From assembly GCA_003154375.1 (NCBI GenBank), contig PMDG01000024.1, positions 154 through 36,350 of the forward strand: a stretch of DNA of 36,197 nt, written 5' to 3'. The notes beneath the pieces were generated by a model. That model searched no databases, was not told the origin of the DNA, and was given only the letters and a program-made list of their open reading frames with translations. Position 1 is the first letter of the stretch. Every line of letters begins with the position of its first letter. Position numbers and translations under genes: made by a program. Positions 16,357 to 28,547 of the stretch are shown here, piece after piece. Source of the stretch: Candidatus Peregrinibacteria bacterium. GTDB taxonomy: Bacteria > Patescibacteriota > Gracilibacteria > UM-FILTER-43-11.

Positions 16357-16785
16357 ATGACTCCTAAGACCCAAGACAAACCCAAGGTTGAGAAGAAAGA
16401 GCATTTCTTTTTTGCAATCGGGAAACGGAAGACTTCCATTGCCCAAGTGAAACTCTATGACAATGGCAAAGGCGTGATGACCATTAACGGAAAGCCTTTC
16501 GAAGATTATTTTTTCGGCGAGATGATCGGTAGTGTGAAATCCGCCTTGAAATTGGTGGATTTGACCAAACGATTCGATGTCGAGGCCGAAGCGGCCGGCG
16601 GTGGCATCTCTTCCCAGGCCGATGCGGTCCGCCATGGCATTGCCAAGGCATTGGTCGTGTTTGATCCTTCCCTTCGCCTAATCCTGAAGCGTGGAGGTTT
16701 TATGACCCGCGATTCGCGCATCAAAGAGCGCAAGAAACCAGGTTTGCTTCGCGCACGCCGAGCACCGCAGTGGAGCAAGCGTTAA
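16357..16785 (+). CDS. rpsI: Ribosomal protein uS9
   Basis: 142 residues with a basic N-terminal extension of about 15 before FFAIGKRKTSIAQVKLYDNG. uS9 sits on the 30S head and its C-terminal tail reaches the P-site tRNA anticodon; the tail RRAPQWSKR is intact, with the invariant final Lys-Arg. GISSQADAVRHGIAKAL is the other conserved region. It starts 18 bases after rplM. It is the last gene of the ribosomal run and is followed by a clear terminator. Confidence 0.97.
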   Translation: MTPKTQDKPKVEKKEHFFFAIGKRKTSIAQVKLYDNGKGVMTINGKPFEDYFFGEMIGSVKSALKLVDLTKRFDVEAEAAGGGISSQADAVRHGIAKALVVFDPSLRLILKRGGFMTRDSRIKERKKPGLLRARRAPQWSKR

Positions 16786-16802
16786 AGGTCCAGTTGAACT
16801 TC

Positions 16803-16848
16803 AAAACCCGTCCTTCGAAGCCTTGTGCGAAGAAGAGACGGGTTTTTT
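16803..16848 (+). terminator. Rho-independent terminator after rpsI
   Basis: AAAACCCGTC (16803-16812) pairs with GACGGGTTTT (16837-16846), with a nested CTTCG/CGAAG stem, and ends in a T-run to 16848. It closes the ribosomal operon 17 bases after the rpsI stop. Confidence 0.88.
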
Positions 16849-16849
16849 G

Positions 16850-16864
16850 TTGGCAGTCTGCCAA
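16850..16864. promoter_or_regulatory. Perfect 7-bp dyad upstream of a strong promoter
   Basis: TTGGCAG and CTGCCAA flank one central T. The dyad lies between the terminator T-run and the -35 box at 16871. It could be an operator, or, followed by AAAAAA on this strand, part of a terminator read from the opposite strand. No protein can be assigned. Confidence 0.35.
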
Positions 16865-16870
16865 AAAAGA

Positions 16871-16900
16871 TTGCAATCCTCAAATAAATATATGTATAAT
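16871..16900 (+). promoter_or_regulatory. Near-consensus promoter for the surface-protein locus
   Basis: TTGCAA (16871-16876) and TATAAT (16895-16900) are 18 bases apart. A start near 16907 gives a leader of about 34 bases before ATG 16941 and excludes the earlier in-frame ATG at 16899, which lies within the -10 box. Confidence 0.75.
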
Positions 16901-16940
16901 GTCGAATGTTAGTGAAAATTTAACAAATAACAAAAAATAT

Positions 16941-18818
16941 ATGAAGAGGTTTATGGAAAAGATAATTAAGAATCCCGCGATTGCCGGATTCCTATTTATT
17001 TTAGTGCTTGCTTTGAGCGGGCCCAATGCCGCGTTCGCGGCCACGTCGCCGTCCCTTGGGGTGGCGGCAACTTATGGTGTCCTTACCGGCACTTTCAACT
17101 ATAATATAGGGTTAACAACCATTACAGGTACTGCTGGACATCCAGTTCTTGGAGTCACGGGAGCATTTCCTGGTGGAGGCGCCTCACTAGCATTGACTGG
17201 CACGACTCAGACAGCCACACCTGCCTATACCGCGGCAGGGTTGGCTCAAGGGAATGCCCTGAACAATGTCGTAGATGGGCTCAATACCCAAGTCTGTACT
17301 CCTATAGGTGCTGCAGTGGCTCTAGACGCGGTAACCATCGGCGCCAATCCTCCTGGAACCTTTCCTCCTGGCTGCTATTCCACTACTGGCGCCATGACCA
17401 TTACCACAGGCACGACCGTGACCCTTAAGGGTCCTGGAACGTTTATCTTCAGGTCGGCGGGCGGAGGCTCAACGCTGTTGCCTGCAGCCAATTCAACCGT
17501 CTTCCTGACCCCTGGCACATCCGCATGCGATGTGTTTTGGGCTCCGGGCGCGGCCACGACGATTGGCGCCAATTCCACGTTCGTTGGTACCATCATCGAT
17601 GACGCGGGGATTACCGTAGGCAATAATGTGACATGGACTGGCAGGGCCTTGGCTTACGCCGCAGCATTGGGAAATGTCAAACTGGATTCGGACAACATTA
17701 CAGTGCCGCCTTGTGGAGCCCCGCCCGCAGTTGGAGGCGGATCCAGCAATGCGAATATCACCGTCGTCAAGACGGTCATCAACGACAACGGCGGAACCAA
17801 GACCGTTGCCGATTTCCCGTTGTTCATCAACGGAAACCCGGTCGTCTCCGGTGTGGGCGAAAACTTCCATGTGCCTGGCGACGCCTTCTGGGTGACTGAA
17901 ACTGGCGATTCCAACTACACCCGGACGTTCTCGGGCGATTGCGACGCCAACGGCAGCTTGAGCCTCAGTGATGGTGGCAGCTTCGTCTGCATCGTTACGA
18001 ACAATGATATCGGCGCCCCTGTGGTTGTCCCGCCAGTCCCGCCGCTCATCGACGTGGTGAAGGTGCCCAGCCCATTGGCCCTGCCGAACGGCCCAGGCAA
18101 GGTGGATTACACCTACACGCTCACGAATATCGGAACGGTCCCGGTGACCGATATCACAATGGTCGGCGACACCTGCAGCCCCATCGTCTTGGCTTCCGGC
18201 GACACCAATTCCGATGGCAAGCTCGATGTGAACGAGACATGGGTCTACAAATGCTCTTGGAATCTCACAGAAACCCATACGAACACCGTCACCGCGACTG
18301 GATGGGCCAATGGCATCAGTGCTGTTGATATCGCCAGTTCTACCGTTATAGTCGGCAAGCCGATCGTTCCACCCTTGATCCACGTGACAAAGGTTCCGAG
18401 GCCTTTGACCCTGCCTGCCGGTGGCGGAGTGGTCACTTATACGAAAAAAGTCACAAATCCGGGGTCAGTCCCCTTGGGCAATGTCCGCCTCACCGACGAC
18501 AAGTGTCCCAATGTGAAATATATCTCTGGCGACACGAATCGCGATTCAATGCTCGATCCTAGTGAGACGTGGATCTACGATTGCAGGACAAGTCTAAAAA
18601 ACACCACTACAAATACCGTTATGGCGACAGGTGATGCCAATGGCCTAAGGGCGAGGGATTACGCAGTTGCCACGGTTGTCGTAGCCACCGCTGTTCCGAA
18701 ATTGCCCAACACGGGTGTTGCCCCTATGGGAAATGTCCTTGTGTGGCCCGTCATCGCATTCGTTATCTTGGCGGGTTCGATTCTCTTTCTTATCGTTCGA
18801 AGAAATAAAGTAATTTAG
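16941..18818 (+). CDS. LPNTG-anchored modular surface protein with DUF3494 head
   Basis: 625 residues. The start MKRFMEKIIKNPAIAGF, followed by a hydrophobic stretch ending NAAFA, is a signal peptide; the same beginning occurs in the protein at 27414. Residues about 38-250 resemble the DUF3494 ice-binding-like beta-solenoid. From about 273 a prealbumin/SpaA-like module ends CIVTNNDI, then two DUF11-like modules start near 367 (IDVVKVPSPL) and 477 (IHVTKVPRPL). The C-terminus is a sortase signal: LPNTG at 588-592, a hydrophobic segment and the tail RRNKVI. The sortase gene follows directly. It is probably a cell-wall-linked adhesin or display protein; true ice binding is not shown. Confidence 0.88.
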   Translation: MKRFMEKIIKNPAIAGFLFILVLALSGPNAAFAATSPSLGVAATYGVLTGTFNYNIGLTTITGTAGHPVLGVTGAFPGGGASLALTGTTQTATPAYTAAGLAQGNALNNVVDGLNTQVCTPIGAAVALDAVTIGANPPGTFPPGCYSTTGAMTITTGTTVTLKGPGTFIFRSAGGGSTLLPAANSTVFLTPGTSACDVFWAPGAATTIGANSTFVGTIIDDAGITVGNNVTWTGRALAYAAALGNVKLDSDNITVPPCGAPPAVGGGSSNANITVVKTVINDNGGTKTVADFPLFINGNPVVSGVGENFHVPGDAFWVTETGDSNYTRTFSGDCDANGSLSLSDGGSFVCIVTNNDIGAPVVVPPVPPLIDVVKVPSPLALPNGPGKVDYTYTLTNIGTVPVTDITMVGDTCSPIVLASGDTNSDGKLDVNETWVYKCSWNLTETHTNTVTATGWANGISAVDIASSTVIVGKPIVPPLIHVTKVPRPLTLPAGGGVVTYTKKVTNPGSVPLGNVRLTDDKCPNVKYISGDTNRDSMLDPSETWIYDCRTSLKNTTTNTVMATGDANGLRARDYAVATVVVATAVPKLPNTGVAPMGNVLVWPVIAFVILAGSILFLIVRRNKVI

Positions 18819-18844
18819 TCTCGGCACCGCGAAGCATCTATGAC

Positions 18845-18876
18845 CAAGGGCCAGACAAACGGTTGTCTGGCCCTTG
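18845..18876 (+). terminator. 14-bp perfect hairpin between substrate and sortase genes
   Basis: CAAGGGCCAGACAA and TTGTCTGGCCCTTG are exact inverted repeats around the loop ACGG. No T-run follows, so it could be a partial terminator, an mRNA stabiliser of the upstream gene or a bidirectional block. It ends 21 bases before the sortase start. Confidence 0.6.
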
Positions 18877-18897: not shown

Positions 18898-20001
18898 ATG
18901 CAATTGAATATCCTATCAAGACGAATACCGCTAATCCTAATAGGATCATTATTTTTTATCCAAAGCTCAATCCTGAGCGGCTCCGTTTCGGCCAATAGCG
19001 CAGGGTTCACTGATGTTCCGAGCACACACCCAAACGCCGAAGCGATCAATTATGTCCATGAGCAAGCGATTGTCGAAGGCTATCCCGATGGCACGTTTCA
19101 TCCCGATAGCCCGATCAACCGTGCCGAATTCACCAAAATCATCGTTGAAGCCTATTACCAGGGGCAGGCGAAGGGCAGCGATTGTTTCCCAGACGTTGGC
19201 ACGGATTGGTTCGCAAAATATGTCTGTCTCGGAAAAAGTCTCAACATCATTGCCGGATACCCCGACGGAAATTTTTATCCAGCCAATGACATCAATTTTG
19301 TCGAGGTCGCAAAAATTTTGGCCAATGCCAAAGGCTCCACGGTGATACCGGATCCCCTTATTTGGTATAAGCCCTATGTGGATATCCTGACTGAGGCCAA
19401 AGCCATCCCTACCTCAATCGGCAGCCTTAACCAGAAAGTGACCCGTGGGGAAATGGCGGAGATGATCTATCGGCTAAGGGCCGAACTTTCGAATCAGCCT
19501 TCCAAAACCTATCAGGAGCTGGTGATTGAAAACGCCACCCCCCAGCAACAGGCGGAGCTCGGGTTGCCGGTGCGACTCAAAATTCCTGTGATTAATGTCG
19601 ATGCCGCAATCGAATATGTGGGTCTTACGCCCCAGGGGGCGGTAGGTGTTCCTGTAGATCCCAACAATGCGGCCTGGTACGATATTGGGCCCTTTCCTGG
19701 TGAGGTTGGTAGCGCGATCATCACAGGGCATGTCGATTGGTACTATGGCGCCAAAGGGGTGTTTGAAAATCTGCACAAGGTTGTGCCTGGCGACAGGATT
19801 ATCGTGCAGGATCTCAAAGGAACAGGCATTTCCTTTGTGGTCCGCGAAATTCGGAACTTTGACCCTTCCGCGGTCGCGACCGACGTCTTCGTCTCAAATG
19901 ACGGGAAAGAGCACCTGAACCTTATCACCTGCGAAGGGAAGTGGATCAAAAGTGCCAAAATGTATTCCCAGCGGTTGGTGGTATTTGCCGATAGGGAATA
20001 G
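18898..20001 (+). CDS. Sortase fused to SLH modules
   Basis: 367 residues. A signal peptide (to about 32) is followed by three S-layer-homology modules at about 36-86, 96-146 and 155-197, with the typical FTDVPSTHPNAEAINYV and GYPDGTFHPDSPINRAEFTK. A linker leads to a sortase domain from about 225 to 365 with His278 (ITGHVDW), Cys345 (LITCEGKW) and Arg359 (YSQRLVV), the full catalytic triad. Sortases join LPxTG-type proteins to cell-wall acceptors outside the membrane; the upstream LPNTG protein is a plausible substrate. The short enzyme core resembles class E/F types, but the class is uncertain. SLH modules would hold the enzyme on the wall instead of by a membrane anchor. Confidence 0.9.
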   Translation: MQLNILSRRIPLILIGSLFFIQSSILSGSVSANSAGFTDVPSTHPNAEAINYVHEQAIVEGYPDGTFHPDSPINRAEFTKIIVEAYYQGQAKGSDCFPDVGTDWFAKYVCLGKSLNIIAGYPDGNFYPANDINFVEVAKILANAKGSTVIPDPLIWYKPYVDILTEAKAIPTSIGSLNQKVTRGEMAEMIYRLRAELSNQPSKTYQELVIENATPQQQAELGLPVRLKIPVINVDAAIEYVGLTPQGAVGVPVDPNNAAWYDIGPFPGEVGSAIITGHVDWYYGAKGVFENLHKVVPGDRIIVQDLKGTGISFVVREIRNFDPSAVATDVFVSNDGKEHLNLITCEGKWIKSAKMYSQRLVVFADRE

Positions 20002-20071
20002 GGGGATTTGTTTTCATCTTTCTAACCGTGCCCGACCAACCGCTTCGACACAGTCAGTAACCAATAAGTAT

Positions 20072-23000
20072 ATGAAAACTGTGGATAAAGTTTTAATGGT
20101 TGTTGTGCTGGCTATCGCGTGTACGTTAGGTTTCATTAGGACAGCTAATGCCGCCACGATAATAGATCTTGGCGTGGCCAATGGCTTTGCGGTCTTGGCT
20201 GGATCCGGCATTACCAACACCCTGGGCCCGACGGCGATCACTGGGGATGTCGGAAGCTATGCGACTGCGACCGAGACAGGTTTTGGTTCGGTCATATTGA
20301 CAGGGACAAATCATGCGGGCGATGGGGTCACACAAGGGGCCAAAACGGATTTGGCGACAGCCTACGGTGTCGCCGCTGGCGAGCCTTGCGATGTGGACTT
20401 GTCTGGCCAAGATCTGGGCGGGCTCACGCTCACGGCTGGGGTCTATTGTTTTAGCTCATCGGCTCAGTTGACCGGAACTCTGACGCTCAACGGAGGCGGC
20501 GATCCCGGCGCCGTATTCATTTTCAAAATCGGCTCCACGTTGACCACCGCATCAGCCAGTCATGTGAGTCTAATCAACAGCGCCCAGGCTTCCGGCGTGT
20601 TTTGGCAAGTCGGCAGTTCCGCGACCTTTGGAACGACCTCCGATTTCAAAGGATCGATCTTGGCCTTGGATTCAATCACGGATGACGGAGGCTCCACATT
20701 TATTGGCAGACTTTTGGCAAGCACTGCCTTGGTCACCCTAAACAACACCACCGTAACCGTGCCCCATCATCCGACAGTGCTCAGCGCGACCACTGGCGAC
20801 AGCAATTTAAACGGCAAGATCGATCACCTGACGGTCGTTTATTCCGAAGCAGTCAATGATCCGGACTACAACGCCTTTGCCGTGACAGGCTACACCATGC
20901 CAGGCACAGGCTCTGGCTCCGGGACCACCACGCTTGTCTACAATCTGAATGAGGGGGCCAGCGTTTTGGATGACGCCTCGTTTAATTATTCATCGGGCAC
21001 CTATTGCCAATCCGGAGCCAATCCGACCCCCTCCATCACGGGATTGCCAGGGGGCACTTTTTCATCTGTTCCTGCTGGATTGATAATCAATCCTTCCACT
21101 GGCACTATTATTTTATCTTCAAGCGCATTGGGCGCCTACACGGTTGCCTACACAACCAATGGAACTAACCCAAACACAAGCTCTTTCACCGCGACGATCG
21201 GCAATACATCGCCTTCCGCGACTTTCAGCTACTTGGGCTCCCCGTTTCCGCAAAATGGCACCAACCCACTTCCCATTTTTGGACCTGGGGCAAGCGCTGG
21301 CACCTTTTCGGTTTCGCCCGGAGGCTTGGTGTTCGCGAATCTGAACTCGGGCGAAATCAATCTGGCCGCGAGCGCTCCAGGCACCTATTTGGTGACCAAC
21401 TCAATTCCTTTGAGCGGCGCTTGCACAGGCGCCATCGCAACCACGACTGTCATCGTCACGGCCGCGGCAGGCCCCATCCTCTTCGGACCTTTTGACACGG
21501 GTGCGACCCCTGTCCTGACATGGACAGCTGCAAATGCGGCTGATCTTGCCGGCGACAGTCTGAATATCGCTGGCGCCCCGGCCCATGCGACGGATGGCGC
21601 AGCGCCAGTTGTGATCAGCGCAAAGACTGGCGACCTTGATGCGGACGGCCAGATCGATTCCTTGGCTGTCGTTTATTCCGAGGGGGTTATCGATAACGGA
21701 TCTGGCGGTTTTCATGGGGTCGCTGTGTCAGGCCATTCGATCAATGTCGGAAACAGCTATGGAAATAATTCAACTTCCCTGACTTATGTGATCAGCGAAA
21801 GCGGCACGCCAGACACTGGAGCGACCCCGACCCTCACTTGGACGCGGTCAAGCGTGATCGATTTTGTCGGAAACCATTTGGATACCACCAACGTCCCTGC
21901 CACCGCCACCGATGGCGCGAAGCCGATCCTCTTTAGCTTCACTTCAAGCACGAGCAATGGAACCTATGGACCCGGAACAATCATCAACCTCACGGCAAAT
22001 TATTCTGAAACCATTGCCAGCGGTTCGGTCACCATCAATTTGAATAACTCGGTGACAGGTCTCACCCTCTCGACCTTGATTGGAACCAGTACCATTTCAG
22101 GCAATTACACGGTGGGCATCTCCGGATCACCCCAAAGTATCGCCCATCTCGATGTCGGATCCATTTCCACGCAAAGTGTCTCGGACGGCGTCAATGTAAA
22201 TTCAACGACGACGATGCCAGCGACCACCCTTTATCCGACCAAAAGCATAACGATCGACACCGCCGCGCCAGTACCTTCCCCGGCCACCCTCCATGTCGTC
22301 AAGACGGTGATGAACAACAGTGGCGGCAGCGCGACGTCTTCATCTTTCAACCTGCATGTGACTCTTTCCGGTACCGATGTGGCGGGAAGCCCCGCCATAG
22401 GAATTGTGTCGCCTGGCAGATCGTACATCCTCGTCGCGGGCACCTACGTGGTCGGCGAGGACGCGGCCGTCGGATACACCTCTGCGATCACTGGGGATTG
22501 CGACGCCAGCGGCAACATCGCCCTCTCCCCGGGCGACAGCAAGACCTGCACGATCACCAACGACGACATCGCGCCCGCTCCGCCCGCTCCAGCCACCCTT
22601 CATGTCATCAAACTTGTTATTAATGGGAATGGCAGCGCAGGGGTTCCCTCCGATTTTATGGCACATGTGAAACTTGCCGGGACCGATGTCGCAGGCAGCC
22701 CCATGGTCGGACTATCGGCACCCGGAAGACTTTATACCCTCGTCGCGGGCACCTATATAGTCAGCGAAAATGCGAATCTCTCCTATTCGAAAAGTTTCAC
22801 TGGAGACTGTGATCCAAGCGGCAGCGTGACGCTCACCGCGGGAATCGATAAGCATTGCACAATCATCAACACCAATATTCCGGCACCGGCACCGATAGCA
22901 CCGATAGCATCAGAAGTTGTTAGCGGTGGTGGAGGTGGTGGCACAAGCTATTTGCCTAGAGTTGTGCCCTTGATCGGTATCCTGAAGGTCCCGACTCCTC

Positions 23001-23899
23001 TCGTTTTGCCCACAAAATCTGGCTTGGTGACTTATAACTACACGGTTTGGAATGTCGGAGGCAAACAGGCTCTGACCGATGTCACGGTCACCGATGACAA
23101 GTGCAGTCCGGTTAGGTTGATTTCCGGCGATCTGAATAGCAACGGCAAGCTGGATCGAAACGAAAGTTGGAAATACAGCTGTGCAACAACGCTATCGGTC
23201 ACCACCACGAACACTTCAACCGCGATCGGATACAGCAATGATATTTACCACCATGCCGCCATCGCGACTGCCATCGCCACCGTTGTCGTTGGGACTACTT
23301 TGCCACCCCCGCTTATTAACATAGTGAAAGTGCCGGACCGCCTTGCTCCATTTCCGATTGGAGGGGGTGATGTCATTTATAAGTACACTGTGACAAACCC
23401 AGGCGTGATTGCAATGGATCGCATCGTCGTCACTGACGATCAATGCGGCCCGGTTTTAGGCCCCGTTGGCGACACCAATAACAATAATCTTCTTGACCCC
23501 TCTGAAAAGTGGATCTACACATGCCGAACCCATGTTTCGGCTTCGGTCAGAGGCGTCGCTACGGTCAAAGGATTCGCGAACGGTTCTGTCGCCCTGGGTT
23601 ATGCCTTCGCGACCGTCCTTGTGGCTTCGTCCTCTTCTGCCAATGGTGAGCAAGTTCGAACGATTCCGATCAATCTTGGGTTAGGCAGCCGTGGCGCCAA
23701 TGTAAAAATCCTTCAGCAATTCCTGATTTCCCAAGACAAAGGGCCAGCCGCCAAATCGTTGGCCAAAATAGGCGCGACCGCCTACTTTGGCATTCGAACC
23801 CGCGCGGCGTTGGCCGAATTCCAGGCGAAAGCCGGAATCAAGCCAGCCATTGGCTATTTCAATGCCATAACCCGAGCTTATTTGAGCGCAAATTATTAA
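20072..23899 (+). CDS. Giant modular exoprotein: DUF3494, Ig-like repeats, DUF11, peptidoglycan-binding end
   Basis: 1275 residues from ATG 20072; the frame opens further upstream into the sortase gene, but MKTVDKVLMVVVLAIACTLG is a clear signal peptide ending TANA. Order of parts: DUF3494 (28-231); a beta-rich Ig-like domain (234-510) interrupted by a 177-residue insert; its uninterrupted paralogue (512-615); a further beta-rich region (616-732); two prealbumin-like modules (738-833, 840-936); two DUF11-like modules (965-1075, 1078-1186); and a peptidoglycan-binding domain (1196-1275) with GSRGANVKILQQFL and ITRAYL. It has no LPxTG motif, so it likely sticks to murein non-covalently. It is presumably an adhesin. 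The product is exported through SecY. Confidence 0.85.
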   Translation: MKTVDKVLMVVVLAIACTLGFIRTANAATIIDLGVANGFAVLAGSGITNTLGPTAITGDVGSYATATETGFGSVILTGTNHAGDGVTQGAKTDLATAYGVAAGEPCDVDLSGQDLGGLTLTAGVYCFSSSAQLTGTLTLNGGGDPGAVFIFKIGSTLTTASASHVSLINSAQASGVFWQVGSSATFGTTSDFKGSILALDSITDDGGSTFIGRLLASTALVTLNNTTVTVPHHPTVLSATTGDSNLNGKIDHLTVVYSEAVNDPDYNAFAVTGYTMPGTGSGSGTTTLVYNLNEGASVLDDASFNYSSGTYCQSGANPTPSITGLPGGTFSSVPAGLIINPSTGTIILSSSALGAYTVAYTTNGTNPNTSSFTATIGNTSPSATFSYLGSPFPQNGTNPLPIFGPGASAGTFSVSPGGLVFANLNSGEINLAASAPGTYLVTNSIPLSGACTGAIATTTVIVTAAAGPILFGPFDTGATPVLTWTAANAADLAGDSLNIAGAPAHATDGAAPVVISAKTGDLDADGQIDSLAVVYSEGVIDNGSGGFHGVAVSGHSINVGNSYGNNSTSLTYVISESGTPDTGATPTLTWTRSSVIDFVGNHLDTTNVPATATDGAKPILFSFTSSTSNGTYGPGTIINLTANYSETIASGSVTINLNNSVTGLTLSTLIGTSTISGNYTVGISGSPQSIAHLDVGSISTQSVSDGVNVNSTTTMPATTLYPTKSITIDTAAPVPSPATLHVVKTVMNNSGGSATSSSFNLHVTLSGTDVAGSPAIGIVSPGRSYILVAGTYVVGEDAAVGYTSAITGDCDASGNIALSPGDSKTCTITNDDIAPAPPAPATLHVIKLVINGNGSAGVPSDFMAHVKLAGTDVAGSPMVGLSAPGRLYTLVAGTYIVSENANLSYSKSFTGDCDPSGSVTLTAGIDKHCTIINTNIPAPAPIAPIASEVVSGGGGGGTSYLPRVVPLIGILKVPTPLVLPTKSGLVTYNYTVWNVGGKQALTDVTVTDDKCSPVRLISGDLNSNGKLDRNESWKYSCATTLSVTTTNTSTAIGYSNDIYHHAAIATAIATVVVGTTLPPPLINIVKVPDRLAPFPIGGGDVIYKYTVTNPGVIAMDRIVVTDDQCGPVLGPVGDTNNNNLLDPSEKWIYTCRTHVSASVRGVATVKGFANGSVALGYAFATVLVASSSSANGEQVRTIPINLGLGSRGANVKILQQFLISQDKGPAAKSLAKIGATAYFGIRTRAALAEFQAKAGIKPAIGYFNAITRAYLSANY
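20957..21493 (+). other. In-frame domain insertion within the exoprotein gene
   Basis: The segment encodes residues about 296-474. It interrupts a domain whose intact paralogue follows at 512-615: the paralogue reads straight from SESGTP to DTGATPTLTW, whereas here NEGAS and DTGATPVLTW are 177 residues apart. The insert holds two tandem repeats of about 80 residues, each with GTF-x-(S/V)-x-P-x-GL and an ILSSSALGAYTV-like strand. Confidence 0.65.
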
Positions 23900-23918
23900 C
23901 GGATCAATAATCATTATT

Positions 23919-26735
23919 ATGAAAAAAATATTTAAATTAGTTGTCCTATTTCTGTTGGGGATTGGATTAGCCTTGTCTAGAGGCGGATACGTTTTTGCAT
24001 CTTCCTCATGGCAAGTCCCCGGCGACCATAGCGGGGTTTGCACGATAGCCAATCCAAGCTGCGCAACGATCCAGGCGGCTATCAATGGGGCAAGCGGTGG
24101 CGACACGATCCATGTTGCGGCAGGAATTTACTCAGAGCAGATCAGCATTAATAAGTCTTTGACATTGGTTGGCGCTGGCGCATCCATGACAACGCTCCAG
24201 GCTCCAAGCCTGCTCGTCAATGATCCCGATGGCTCAAAGACCGTCGCCTTGTTTACCGGTGCCATCACCGCAGAGATCAGTGGCTTCACCATTCAGGGGC
24301 CTGTGAATGGCCTCAGTTTCGGCATTTATGTGCGTGGCGGCGCAACGGTTAATATCCACGACAATGTGGTCAAGGATATCCGTGATGAGCCATTGAGTGG
24401 CGGCCAAAACGACAATGCGGCTATCCAAGTGGGCAGATACCCATACGGAACCGCAAACCAAATTGGCGTCGCAACCATCACAAATAACAAGATTTCCGGC
24501 TACCAGAAGGTGGGCATCGCTGTTGAAAATACTGGCTCTGCCGCCACGATTACCGGAAACACGGTCACAGGCATAGGACCCACAACGATCACGTCCCAGA
24601 ACGGTATCCAGCTCCGTCGCGGTGCGACGGGGTCCATCAAGAACAATATTGTCACTGGCAACGCCTATGACGGTCCCACCTATTCCGCCTTTGGCATCGG
24701 CGTCACCTATCCAGGGTTCGGCGTTGTCGTTCAGGGGAATACCGTTAATCACAACAGCGCGAATATCTATGGCTGGGAAAGCGATGGTATCCAAATTCTC
24801 GATAACAAGGTTAGCGACACGGCAACGGTGGACCAAAACAAAGTGGCAGGGATCACCATTCAGGGGGGCACTTCAGCCACGGCCTCCGTTGGGCTCACCG
24901 GCATTGTCATTTCGGGCAATAGCGTGAAGAACAACCTGTCGGGACCCTCGACACAATCGGACGGTGTTGATCTTTACGGGATAAGGAGTGGCACTGTCAG
25001 CAACAATGTTATCAAGGGAAGTTCCTATGATGGGATCCTGATTGGCGGGTCTGGCAACATTGCCATTACCGGTAACCGGTTTTCCGGAAACGGCCTGCTC
25101 ACAGCGGATCCGGACGCCGCGGCCATTGATTTTCGCGGAATTCCATCAAGGGATTGGTCTCAGCCCTTGGGCAACGGCGGCCCAAATCCGTTGGAAGGTT
25201 TCACGGTTCATGAAAATTCATTTTTGGGTGACCGCAATGGAATCTTGAATTACGATAGCGGTGGCGTGGATGCCATCCACAACTGGTGGGGAGACGCGAG
25301 TGGCCCGAACGATTCAATTTCGGCAGATGGAAGCGTACCGGATACGAATTCAGGCACTGGTTTATCGGCCAAGGGCTCCTTGGATTATTCGGGTTGGTGC
25401 GTTGCTGATTGTGCTACTGCCGTTGATCCAAGTCCGGCGCCTACTCCGTCGAGCTCAAGCAGCCGCCAGGCCATCATCACCGTCGTCAAGACGGTCATCA
25501 ACGACAATGGCGGGACCAAGACCGTCGCCGACTTCCCGCTGTTCATCAACGGCACCCCGGTCGTCTCAGGTGTTGGTAATAGCTACCGCGTGCCAGGCGA
25601 TGCGTTTTGGGTGACTGAGACCCCTGATCCCAACTATGTCCAGACATTTTCTGGCGATTGCGACAGCAATGGCAGCATGAGCCTCAGCGAGGGTGGCGAC
25701 TATTTTTGTATCGTCACGAATGACGATATTGGCACCCATTCGGCTGCTTCTGACGCATTTCCCTATATTGACGTGGTGAAGGTACCCAGCCCACTGTCAC
25801 TGCCTGGCGGCTCAGGCGTGGTGAAATACACCTACACACTTCGCAATATCGGAACAGTCCCCGTGACCGACATCACGATGGTCGGCGACACCTGCAGCCC
25901 TATCGTTTTAGCTTCCGGCGACACCAATTTCGATTCCAAGCTTGATGTGGACGAGGCCTGGAAATACACTTGCACCCAGACCCTCACGGAAACCCATACG
26001 AACACCGTCACCGCGACTGGATGGGCCAATAATACTAGCGCGGTCGCCATCGCCAGCGCCACCGTCGTAGTCGGCGCCCCGACAGTGCCTCCCCTGATTC
26101 ACGTGACGCCCCTGATCCAGGTGTCAAATGTTCCAAGGCCGACCTCCCTGCTTTCTGGAGGGGGATTGGTCACTTATTTTGAAAAAGTCACTAACCCGGG
26201 AAATGTCCCATTGAGCAATGTTCAGGTTATCAATGACACTGATGATGCCGATCCTACCGATGAGATTAATGAGACTATCGACAAGTGTGCCAATGTGAGA
26301 TATCTCTACGGCGACACAAATCATGATTCGAAGCTTGACCCCTCCGAGACATGGACCTATATCTGTCGGGCCAACCTCATGCAGACCACGACCAATACCG
26401 TCATGGTGAGCGGGGAAGCCAACGGCATGAAAGCGAGAGATCTCGCAGTCGTCGAAGTCCCCGTGGCTGCGTCTAGATTAGGTCAGAAATTTCAGACGAT
26501 CGCGGCCGGTTTTGGAATTGGCAGTCGTGGCACCAACGTGAAAATTCTTCAGCAATTCCTGATTCTTCAAAATACGGGTCCTGCCACCCGTGCCCTGGCC
26601 AAAGCTGGCGCGACGGCTTATTTCGGAGTCCTGACCCGCGCATCCTTGGCCGAATTTCAGGTGAAAGTCGGAATTAGGCCAGCTTTGGGCTATTTCAATT
26701 CCATAACCCGAGCCTATTTGAACACCCATTATTGA
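23919..26735 (+). CDS. Secreted parallel beta-helix protein with DUF11 and peptidoglycan-binding end
   Basis: 938 residues. A signal peptide (MKKIFKLVVLFLLGIGLALS) is followed by a pectate-lyase-like parallel beta-helix to about 500, visible as recurring GITGN/GNTV/NNKIS rungs and a starting CATIQAAINGASGGDTIHV, the NosD/PbH1 pattern. From about 521 comes the prealbumin-like module (ITVVKTVINDNGG), then DUF11-like modules from about 613 and 730, and a peptidoglycan-binding domain from 857 (GSRGTNVKILQQFL). No catalytic residues of a polysaccharide lyase can be assigned, so glycan binding or cleavage is open. It begins 19 bases after the previous gene and probably shares its transcript. The middle modules are nearly the same as in the LPNTG protein. 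Confidence 0.85.
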   Translation: MKKIFKLVVLFLLGIGLALSRGGYVFASSSWQVPGDHSGVCTIANPSCATIQAAINGASGGDTIHVAAGIYSEQISINKSLTLVGAGASMTTLQAPSLLVNDPDGSKTVALFTGAITAEISGFTIQGPVNGLSFGIYVRGGATVNIHDNVVKDIRDEPLSGGQNDNAAIQVGRYPYGTANQIGVATITNNKISGYQKVGIAVENTGSAATITGNTVTGIGPTTITSQNGIQLRRGATGSIKNNIVTGNAYDGPTYSAFGIGVTYPGFGVVVQGNTVNHNSANIYGWESDGIQILDNKVSDTATVDQNKVAGITIQGGTSATASVGLTGIVISGNSVKNNLSGPSTQSDGVDLYGIRSGTVSNNVIKGSSYDGILIGGSGNIAITGNRFSGNGLLTADPDAAAIDFRGIPSRDWSQPLGNGGPNPLEGFTVHENSFLGDRNGILNYDSGGVDAIHNWWGDASGPNDSISADGSVPDTNSGTGLSAKGSLDYSGWCVADCATAVDPSPAPTPSSSSSRQAIITVVKTVINDNGGTKTVADFPLFINGTPVVSGVGNSYRVPGDAFWVTETPDPNYVQTFSGDCDSNGSMSLSEGGDYFCIVTNDDIGTHSAASDAFPYIDVVKVPSPLSLPGGSGVVKYTYTLRNIGTVPVTDITMVGDTCSPIVLASGDTNFDSKLDVDEAWKYTCTQTLTETHTNTVTATGWANNTSAVAIASATVVVGAPTVPPLIHVTPLIQVSNVPRPTSLLSGGGLVTYFEKVTNPGNVPLSNVQVINDTDDADPTDEINETIDKCANVRYLYGDTNHDSKLDPSETWTYICRANLMQTTTNTVMVSGEANGMKARDLAVVEVPVAASRLGQKFQTIAAGFGIGSRGTNVKILQQFLILQNTGPATRALAKAGATAYFGVLTRASLAEFQVKVGIRPALGYFNSITRAYLNTHY

Positions 26736-27413: not shown

Positions 27414-28547
27414 ATGAAGAGGACAATGGAAAAGATAATTAGGAATTCAGTGGCAACTGGATTCGCAGTTTTATTAGTACTCGTTTTAGTCGGTCCGATC
27501 GCCGTGTTCGCGTCTGGTCCATCCGCAGTCGATCTTTCATCGGCGGGTAATTTCGCGATCCTCTCGAAAACGGGAATCACGGACACCGGAAGCCATACTT
27601 CCGATATCACTGGGAACATCGGATCCAGCCCGATCACCGCCGCGGCGATGAACAATGTCTTTTGCACGGAGATTACCGGGAAGATATACGGTGTCGATGC
27701 CGCCTATATCGGCAGCGGCAATCAATCCTGTTTTTTGGGCAATCCTCCAGCGGCCAACAAGACTTTGGTCGACAATGCGATCCTCGACATGTTAGCCGCC
27801 TACACCGATGTCGCCGGAAGGACAAACCCAACAGCGATCGAATTGGGCGCCGGGAACATTGGCGGCATGACTCTGGCCCCTGGAATCTACAAATGGGGGA
27901 CGGATGTCACTATATCCACCAATGTCACCCTCTCAGGCAGCGCAAGCGATGTTTGGATATTCCAAATCGCCGGAAATCTTAATATCGCCTCTGCCGGAAG
28001 CGTTTCCTCTGGCATCAAGGTTTTACTCGCTGGCGGGGCCAAGCCTTCGAATGTTTTCTGGCAGGTTGGCGGCGTCTCTGGCGCGACCCTTGGGACGTAT
28101 TCCACCTTCAATGGAAGCATCTTGAGCGCAAAACAGATCATGATGCAAACTGGCTCAGTGCTGAATGGCAGGGCATTGGCCCAAACCCAAGTCACGCTCG
28201 ATGCCAGCACCGTAACAGTTACTGCCGTTTCGGCAGGATCCGAATCGGGGAACCAGGCAAATCAATCCGAGATGTCAAACAATGTTGGCCAAACGAACAG
28301 CAATGACAATAACGGTTCTCAGTCTTACACCCCCACTCCGAAATTGCCGAAAATGACCTATCACGCAGCCCTCAAAACCTATTTGGCGGATATGAAAGTA
28401 GCCCGAACCGAATTTAATTTGTCTATGGAAAAGGCGATTGCCCACAAATCGAATAGTGAAAAATCAGCTGCCCGCAAAGCCTATGATCTGGCAAAAAAAG
28501 CGGCCCAGAAAACGTTCAAGGATGCGAGAGCCGCCTTGAAAAAATAG
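27414..28547 (+). CDS. DUF3494 (ice-binding-like) exoprotein with basic helical tail
   Basis: 377 residues. The signal peptide MKRTMEKIIRNSVATGF... ends AVFA and resembles that of the gene at 16941. Residues about 36-265 are a canonical DUF3494 domain: LSSAGNFAILSKTGITDTGS, ITGNIGSSPI, LAPGIYKWGTDVTIS, and ASDVWIFQIAGNLNIASAGS. After an Asn/Gln/Ser-rich linker, the last 80 residues are a Lys/Ala-rich helix (KSNSEKSAARKAYDLAKKAA) that could be a coiled coil or bind wall polymers. There is no LPxTG, SLH or peptidoglycan-binding domain. DUF3494 proteins include ice-binding proteins and adhesins; which applies here cannot be read from the sequence. Confidence 0.88.
   Translation: MKRTMEKIIRNSVATGFAVLLVLVLVGPIAVFASGPSAVDLSSAGNFAILSKTGITDTGSHTSDITGNIGSSPITAAAMNNVFCTEITGKIYGVDAAYIGSGNQSCFLGNPPAANKTLVDNAILDMLAAYTDVAGRTNPTAIELGAGNIGGMTLAPGIYKWGTDVTISTNVTLSGSASDVWIFQIAGNLNIASAGSVSSGIKVLLAGGAKPSNVFWQVGGVSGATLGTYSTFNGSILSAKQIMMQTGSVLNGRALAQTQVTLDASTVTVTAVSAGSESGNQANQSEMSNNVGQTNSNDNNGSQSYTPTPKLPKMTYHAALKTYLADMKVARTEFNLSMEKAIAHKSNSEKSAARKAYDLAKKAAQKTFKDARAALKK

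Follow-up and report, generated by a model that had tools for sequence, protein, structure and literature searches.

The window analysed here, a 36,197-nucleotide stretch of contig PMDG01000024.1 from Candidatus Peregrinibacteria, carries a gene (18898 to 20001) in which S-layer-homology (SLH) modules are joined to a sortase domain, downstream of a gene for a presumed substrate and upstream of further surface-protein genes. All of the following features lie on the forward (+) strand.

16770 to 18818, +, presumed cognate substrate: DUF3494 (ice-binding-like) and DUF7507/DUF11 repeats, with a C-terminal LPNTG, transmembrane (TM) segment and RR
18843 to 18876, +, strong intergenic RNA hairpin separating the substrate gene from the sortase gene: -27 kcal/mol, z -6.1, 13-bp perfect stem
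18898 to 20001, +, SLH-sortase gene (product P0001): ATG start, 367 aa, no internal stop
18898 to 18993, +, N-terminal export segment, residues 1-32: LNILSRR, hydrophobic core and SVSA
19006 to 19131, +, SLH module 1, residues 37-78: G61; INRAE with R75
19183 to 19338, +, SLH module 2, about residues 96-147: W104, G120; INFVE, a TVEE-like variant
19345 to 19482, +, SLH module 3, degenerate, about residues 150-195: W156; VTRGE with R183
19483 to 19563, +, linker, residues 196-222: lower model confidence, least conserved among the mature regions
19564 to 19998, +, class F-like sortase domain, residues 223-367
19729-19731, 19930-19932 and 19972-19974, +, catalytic codons of His278, Cys345 and Arg359
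19952 to 23899, +, surface protein: DUF3494, DUF7507, SpaA_2 and a weak PG_binding_1, without LPxTG signal
23919 to 26735, +, surface protein: beta-helix/NosD-like and DUF7507-like, without LPxTG
27414 to 28547, +, third DUF3494 gene in the cluster

The sequence-only reading had taken 18898-20001 for a sortase fused to three SLH modules, and profile searches and modelling bear this out. P0001 scores 89.1 bits for SLH (cut-off 20.8) and 71.6 bits for Sortase PF04203 (cut-off 26.6) in Pfam, so that an SLH score under the family threshold, which had been named as a ground for dismissing the reading, does not apply. Two of the three SLH modules are significant individually; the third is degenerate and falls below the cut-off alone, but is visible as a helix pair in the AlphaFold2 model (mean pLDDT 86.3, alignment of 54 sequences). 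In this model, helix pairs at 47-55/75-87, 106-114/134-145 and 158-166/183-195 are followed by the beta-barrel of a sortase, and Foldseek matches it to solved sortases with E about 1e-11. His278, Cys345 and Arg359, which had been named as the triad, are present at these positions and invariant among 14 SLH-sortases aligned.

An orthologue (L014) of the same architecture and 66% identity comes from a second species in the genus, and dN/dS between the two species is about 0.16 for the SLH part and 0.14 for the sortase part, which indicates that both domains are under purifying selection. P0001 is thus neither a chance product nor an assembly artefact. An assembly chimera, a pseudogene or a chance fusion is a negligible prospect against this orthologue, the low dN/dS, the conserved locus with its ribosomal-protein-gene neighbours and the occurrence of SLH-sortases, whether of this origin or another, in 67 genomes.

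The listed start of the substrate gene is a GTG, with the Sec signal about 60 aa in, and translation of the exported form probably begins at a later ATG. Its product scores 11.3 bits against the Pfam LPxTG anchor profile (Gram_pos_anchor), below the cut-off; this profile is uninformative here, as nothing in the genome exceeds its cut-off (top score 12.8 bits). In the second species (Ca. Peregrinibacteria JACRIF010000118.1), the substrate and SLH-sortase genes come after the same set of ribosomal protein genes; a small cupin-like ORF separates the pair. The hairpin of the window lacks a clear T tract and is possibly a terminator or a processing site. Because of this hairpin, and of the cupin-like ORF in the sister species, the two genes may not be co-transcribed. 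The conserved pairing with an LPNTG partner that has its own C-terminal TM segment fits ordinary sortase chemistry, and the product of 16770-18818 is most likely the protein that P0001 would process. Downstream, the listed GTG start of 19952-23899 overlaps the sortase gene, and the ATG at 20071 is the likely start. The large surface proteins in 19952-26735 possibly use a different anchoring route within the cluster. By eye, the C-termini of the products of 19952-23899 and 23919-26735 are alike.

Sortase class and the DUF3494 cassette

The closest NCBIfam family to P0001 is the class F sortase NF033748 (E = 4.8e-34 over 145 residues), and P0001 is called class F-like because its score, 117.2 bits, is under the 166-bit cut-off of the family. 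The first example of this family is from Propionibacterium acnes. The order of the catalytic triad is the same, whereas P0001 differs by its N-terminal SLH trimer and by its non-fused relatives, CPR sortases with DUF3494 substrates as partners. The Pfam score, the triad, the barrel and an LPxTG-type substrate in the genome all place P0001 in the sortase superfamily (peptidase C60), as a putative transpeptidase with predicted activity on the LPNTG substrate. The physiology of class F sortases is little known; deletion of all four of them in Actinoplanes gave no phenotype (PMC13251363).

The sortase domain of P0001 falls in a clade of short sortases with members throughout CPR. Among 79 homologous loci of named genomes, obtained from the best 80 of 281 relatives, a DUF3494 gene adjoins or is fused with the sortase at 71. 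It lies directly upstream on the same strand in nearly all, with a median gap of 43.5 bases (n=70), and a sorting-signal-like C-terminus is found nearby at about 60 of the 79. No DUF3494 lies within 4.5 kb at any of 36 control loci of other sortase types from the window's class. In these cassettes (L137-L216), the DUF3494 protein is usually LPxTG-tailed. The sortase domain is 48-63% identical to that of P0001 and the substrate gene is likewise upstream, but 78 of the 79 sortases have a TM-type N-terminus without SLH, the single one with SLH being that of the sister species. Accordingly, the pairing is old and CPR-wide and SLH a recent addition in the genus, and among the cassette sortases of these loci only those of P0001's genus carry the SLH insert. 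A search of one literature library found no paper on DUF3494-sortase pairs. At one locus (L205 2934-5447, Ca. Uhrbacteria JAHFHK010000010.1), a DUF3494 region and a class F-like sortase are in one 837-aa protein. Another cassette (L203) is in a bin labelled Lentisphaerae (GWF2_44_16), a different phylum, by misbinning or transfer.

Distribution and origins of SLH-sortases

A full-length P0001 query is swamped by SLH matches, and the sortase domain and a profile of the fused protein were used instead. In the class of the window (Ca. Peregrinibacteria/Peribacteria), such fusions are common: of 288 genomes, 67 contain a total of 68 matches that span SLH and sortase in the fused-protein profile, and families f1 and f5 account for nearly all of them. 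No full-length fused SLH-sortase is among the higher-scoring matches listed for 343 sampled genomes of other Patescibacteria classes, and the listed matches there cover the sortase part only. The survey covers Patescibacteria, and other phyla are represented by one pattern-based contig scan. In a tree of 82 sortase domains, the SLH label changes at least three times independently, also on well supported branches, namely in the window genus, in a clade of a second type (L003, L097 and f5 proteins) and in L087. A single origin of SLH-sortases is ruled out by these changes. In some genomes of the class (G028, G098, G107 and others), the sortase and SLH matches contain many in-frame TGA codons, which is consistent with TGA recoding in these lineages. 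Sortases and S-layer proteins have been noted separately in CPR (PMC4736985, PMC6744442), and no title or abstract was found to describe an SLH-sortase fusion, including in Patescibacteria. Sortase and SLH are each known; what stands out is that they are combined, and that the fusion was gained repeatedly and is conserved across the clade.

Anchoring, proposed wall docking and the acceptor

In Paenibacillus alvei SpaA (PMC6081394), SLH1 contributes Arg, SLH2 Gly and SLH3 Trp to the primary groove, and the secondary one takes its Arg from SLH3, its Gly from SLH1 and its Trp from SLH2. In comparison with SpaA, R75/G120/W156 of P0001 correspond to groove 2 (primary) and R183/G61/W104 to groove 1 (secondary), so that the pyruvate-binding residues (SLH-Arg43, Gly29, Trp13) are arranged for both functional grooves. 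INRAE/INFVE/VTRGE of P0001 follow the TRAE/TVEE/TRAQ pattern of SpaA, and the pocket Trp and Gly of each functional groove in SpaA and Sap-type trimers are kept. P0001 differs from these SLH-anchored surface proteins in its cargo: a putative transpeptidase takes the place of the S-layer subunit, adhesin or hydrolase. At 1.58 Mb and 97% completeness, the genome encodes a CsaB-type ketal-pyruvyl transferase (PF04230, 123.6 bits), about 20 SLH proteins and a class A PBP, the last of which shows peptidoglycan synthesis. Judged by its residues, the SLH ligand site of P0001 is competent, and P0001 is predicted to bind a wall polymer.

Sortases are usually described as membrane-held, encountering both the secreted precursors and lipid II there. 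For P0001, the sequence-only reading had envisaged no TM anchor after signal cleavage. This stands as far as the mature protein is concerned: beyond residue 40, the maximum 19-residue hydrophobicity (Kyte-Doolittle) is only 1.02, and hence there is no later TM segment. The rest of the claim depends on predicted cleavage, because the N-terminus resembles the anchor of relatives. SPase I motifs are present in P0001 (VSA32/N33) and L014 (VQA), and their N-termini are called cleavable with P = 0.89 and 0.78, respectively, by a small home-made logistic model with a leave-one-out accuracy of only 88%/76%. An xxA SPase site is found in 25 of 27 fused sortases and in 52 of 139 non-fused ones. On the other hand, the segment begins with LNILSRR in P0001, and L014 has LKILSR; a KILSK-type start, defined by a regex chosen post hoc after inspection, marks the TM anchor in 12 of 77 relatives that lack the fusion, but is seen in none of 62 SLH-only and none of 103 DUF3494 proteins. 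For a profile of this anchor type, P0001 ranks first among 200 N-termini. Its N-terminal segment thus looks like a descendant of the membrane anchor of non-fused relatives. In the simplest history, the SLH modules would have entered the chain after the ancestral anchor, and this anchor would since have turned, or still be turning, into a cleavable signal; membrane anchoring has likely been lost in P0001.

Taken together, P0001 is probably a wall-docked dedicated sortase that processes the LPNTG signal of its upstream neighbour, a reading to which we give a probability of about 0.7 in its full four-step form. P0001 would be secreted through Sec and would probably lose residues 1-32 by cleavage after Ala32. 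Its three SLH modules would then bind the pyruvylated secondary wall polymer via R75/G120/W156 and R183/G61/W104. The tethered sortase would attack LPNTG of the DUF3494/DUF7507 protein, itself presumably held in the membrane by its C-terminal TM segment, to form a thioacyl intermediate on Cys345; the triad and the gene pairing are observed. Finally, by analogy, the protein would be transferred to an amine, most likely one belonging to lipid II or to a stem peptide of the peptidoglycan. Such an enzyme would descend from a CPR-wide class F-like sortase with DUF3494-LPxTG proteins as its substrates, the SLH modules having been added downstream of the N-terminal anchor and ahead of the catalytic part.

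The anchor-like N-terminus lends itself to another arrangement, in which the segment stays uncleaved and keeps P0001 in the membrane while SLH makes a second contact with the wall, placing the enzyme at the membrane-wall interface. The distribution of the KILSK-type motif, the first rank of P0001 in the profile comparison and the TM-like N-terminus retained by the independent SLH-sortase L087 are in its favor. It is nevertheless unlikely, if a serious candidate: SPase I motifs and high cleavable scores speak for release of P0001 and L014, whereas most KILSK relatives score below 0.2 in the same classifier, nearly all other SLH-sortases have cleavable-looking signals, and the motif itself is post hoc. 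At the opposite extreme, the sortase would be fully off the membrane on the pyruvylated polymer and would join its dedicated, adhesin-like DUF3494 substrate to a wall or S-layer acceptor instead of lipid II, a relocation evolved at least three times in the class; this whole combination is improbable.

As regards the acceptor, a wall- or S-layer-bound P0001 might join LPNTG proteins to S-layer subunits or the secondary wall polymer, not lipid II, as the sequence-only reading had proposed. SLH docking would put the active site beside such acceptors, and surface proteins are encoded downstream in the same cluster. However, non-SLH relatives have the same type of substrate, which indicates that the chemistry is older than SLH docking, and the substrate retains a membrane-held sorting signal; we regard this transfer as distinctly doubtful. 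Equally doubtful is the idea that SLH serves as display or protein-contact modules and that the sortase is mainly a soluble or wall-associated hydrolase releasing the DUF3494 protein. The little-known physiology of class F, with the silent four-gene deletion in Actinoplanes (PMC13251363), leaves room for it, but the ligand residues are kept in both SLH grooves, csaB is present, and sortase and sorting signal tightly co-occur. A wall-docked sortase gained repeatedly in Peregrinibacteria/Peribacteria would make the site of action and the acceptor of sortases a testable matter. The DUF3494-LPxTG protein and its sortase are also a predicted enzyme-substrate couple at the surface of bacteria of the episymbiotic type, about whose envelope little is known.

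The genome encodes three sortases, P0001, a 254-aa TM-type sortase (contig C43) and a second SLH-sortase (L119 6709-7836, contig C78) adjoining dnaN, and the TM-type housekeeping sortase or the second SLH-sortase could process the LPNTG protein instead. In Peregrinibacteria/Peribacteria, the second type of SLH-sortase (L003/L097/L101 clade) has the domain order, signal peptide and triad of P0001, but belongs to a separate sortase clade with class C/D-like scores. Its genes are solitary, with no LPxTG gene beside them at the loci examined, which distinguishes them from P0001 with its adjacent substrate. The L119-type SLH-sortase, which is of a different lineage, is conserved across most of the f1 and f5 genomes sampled.
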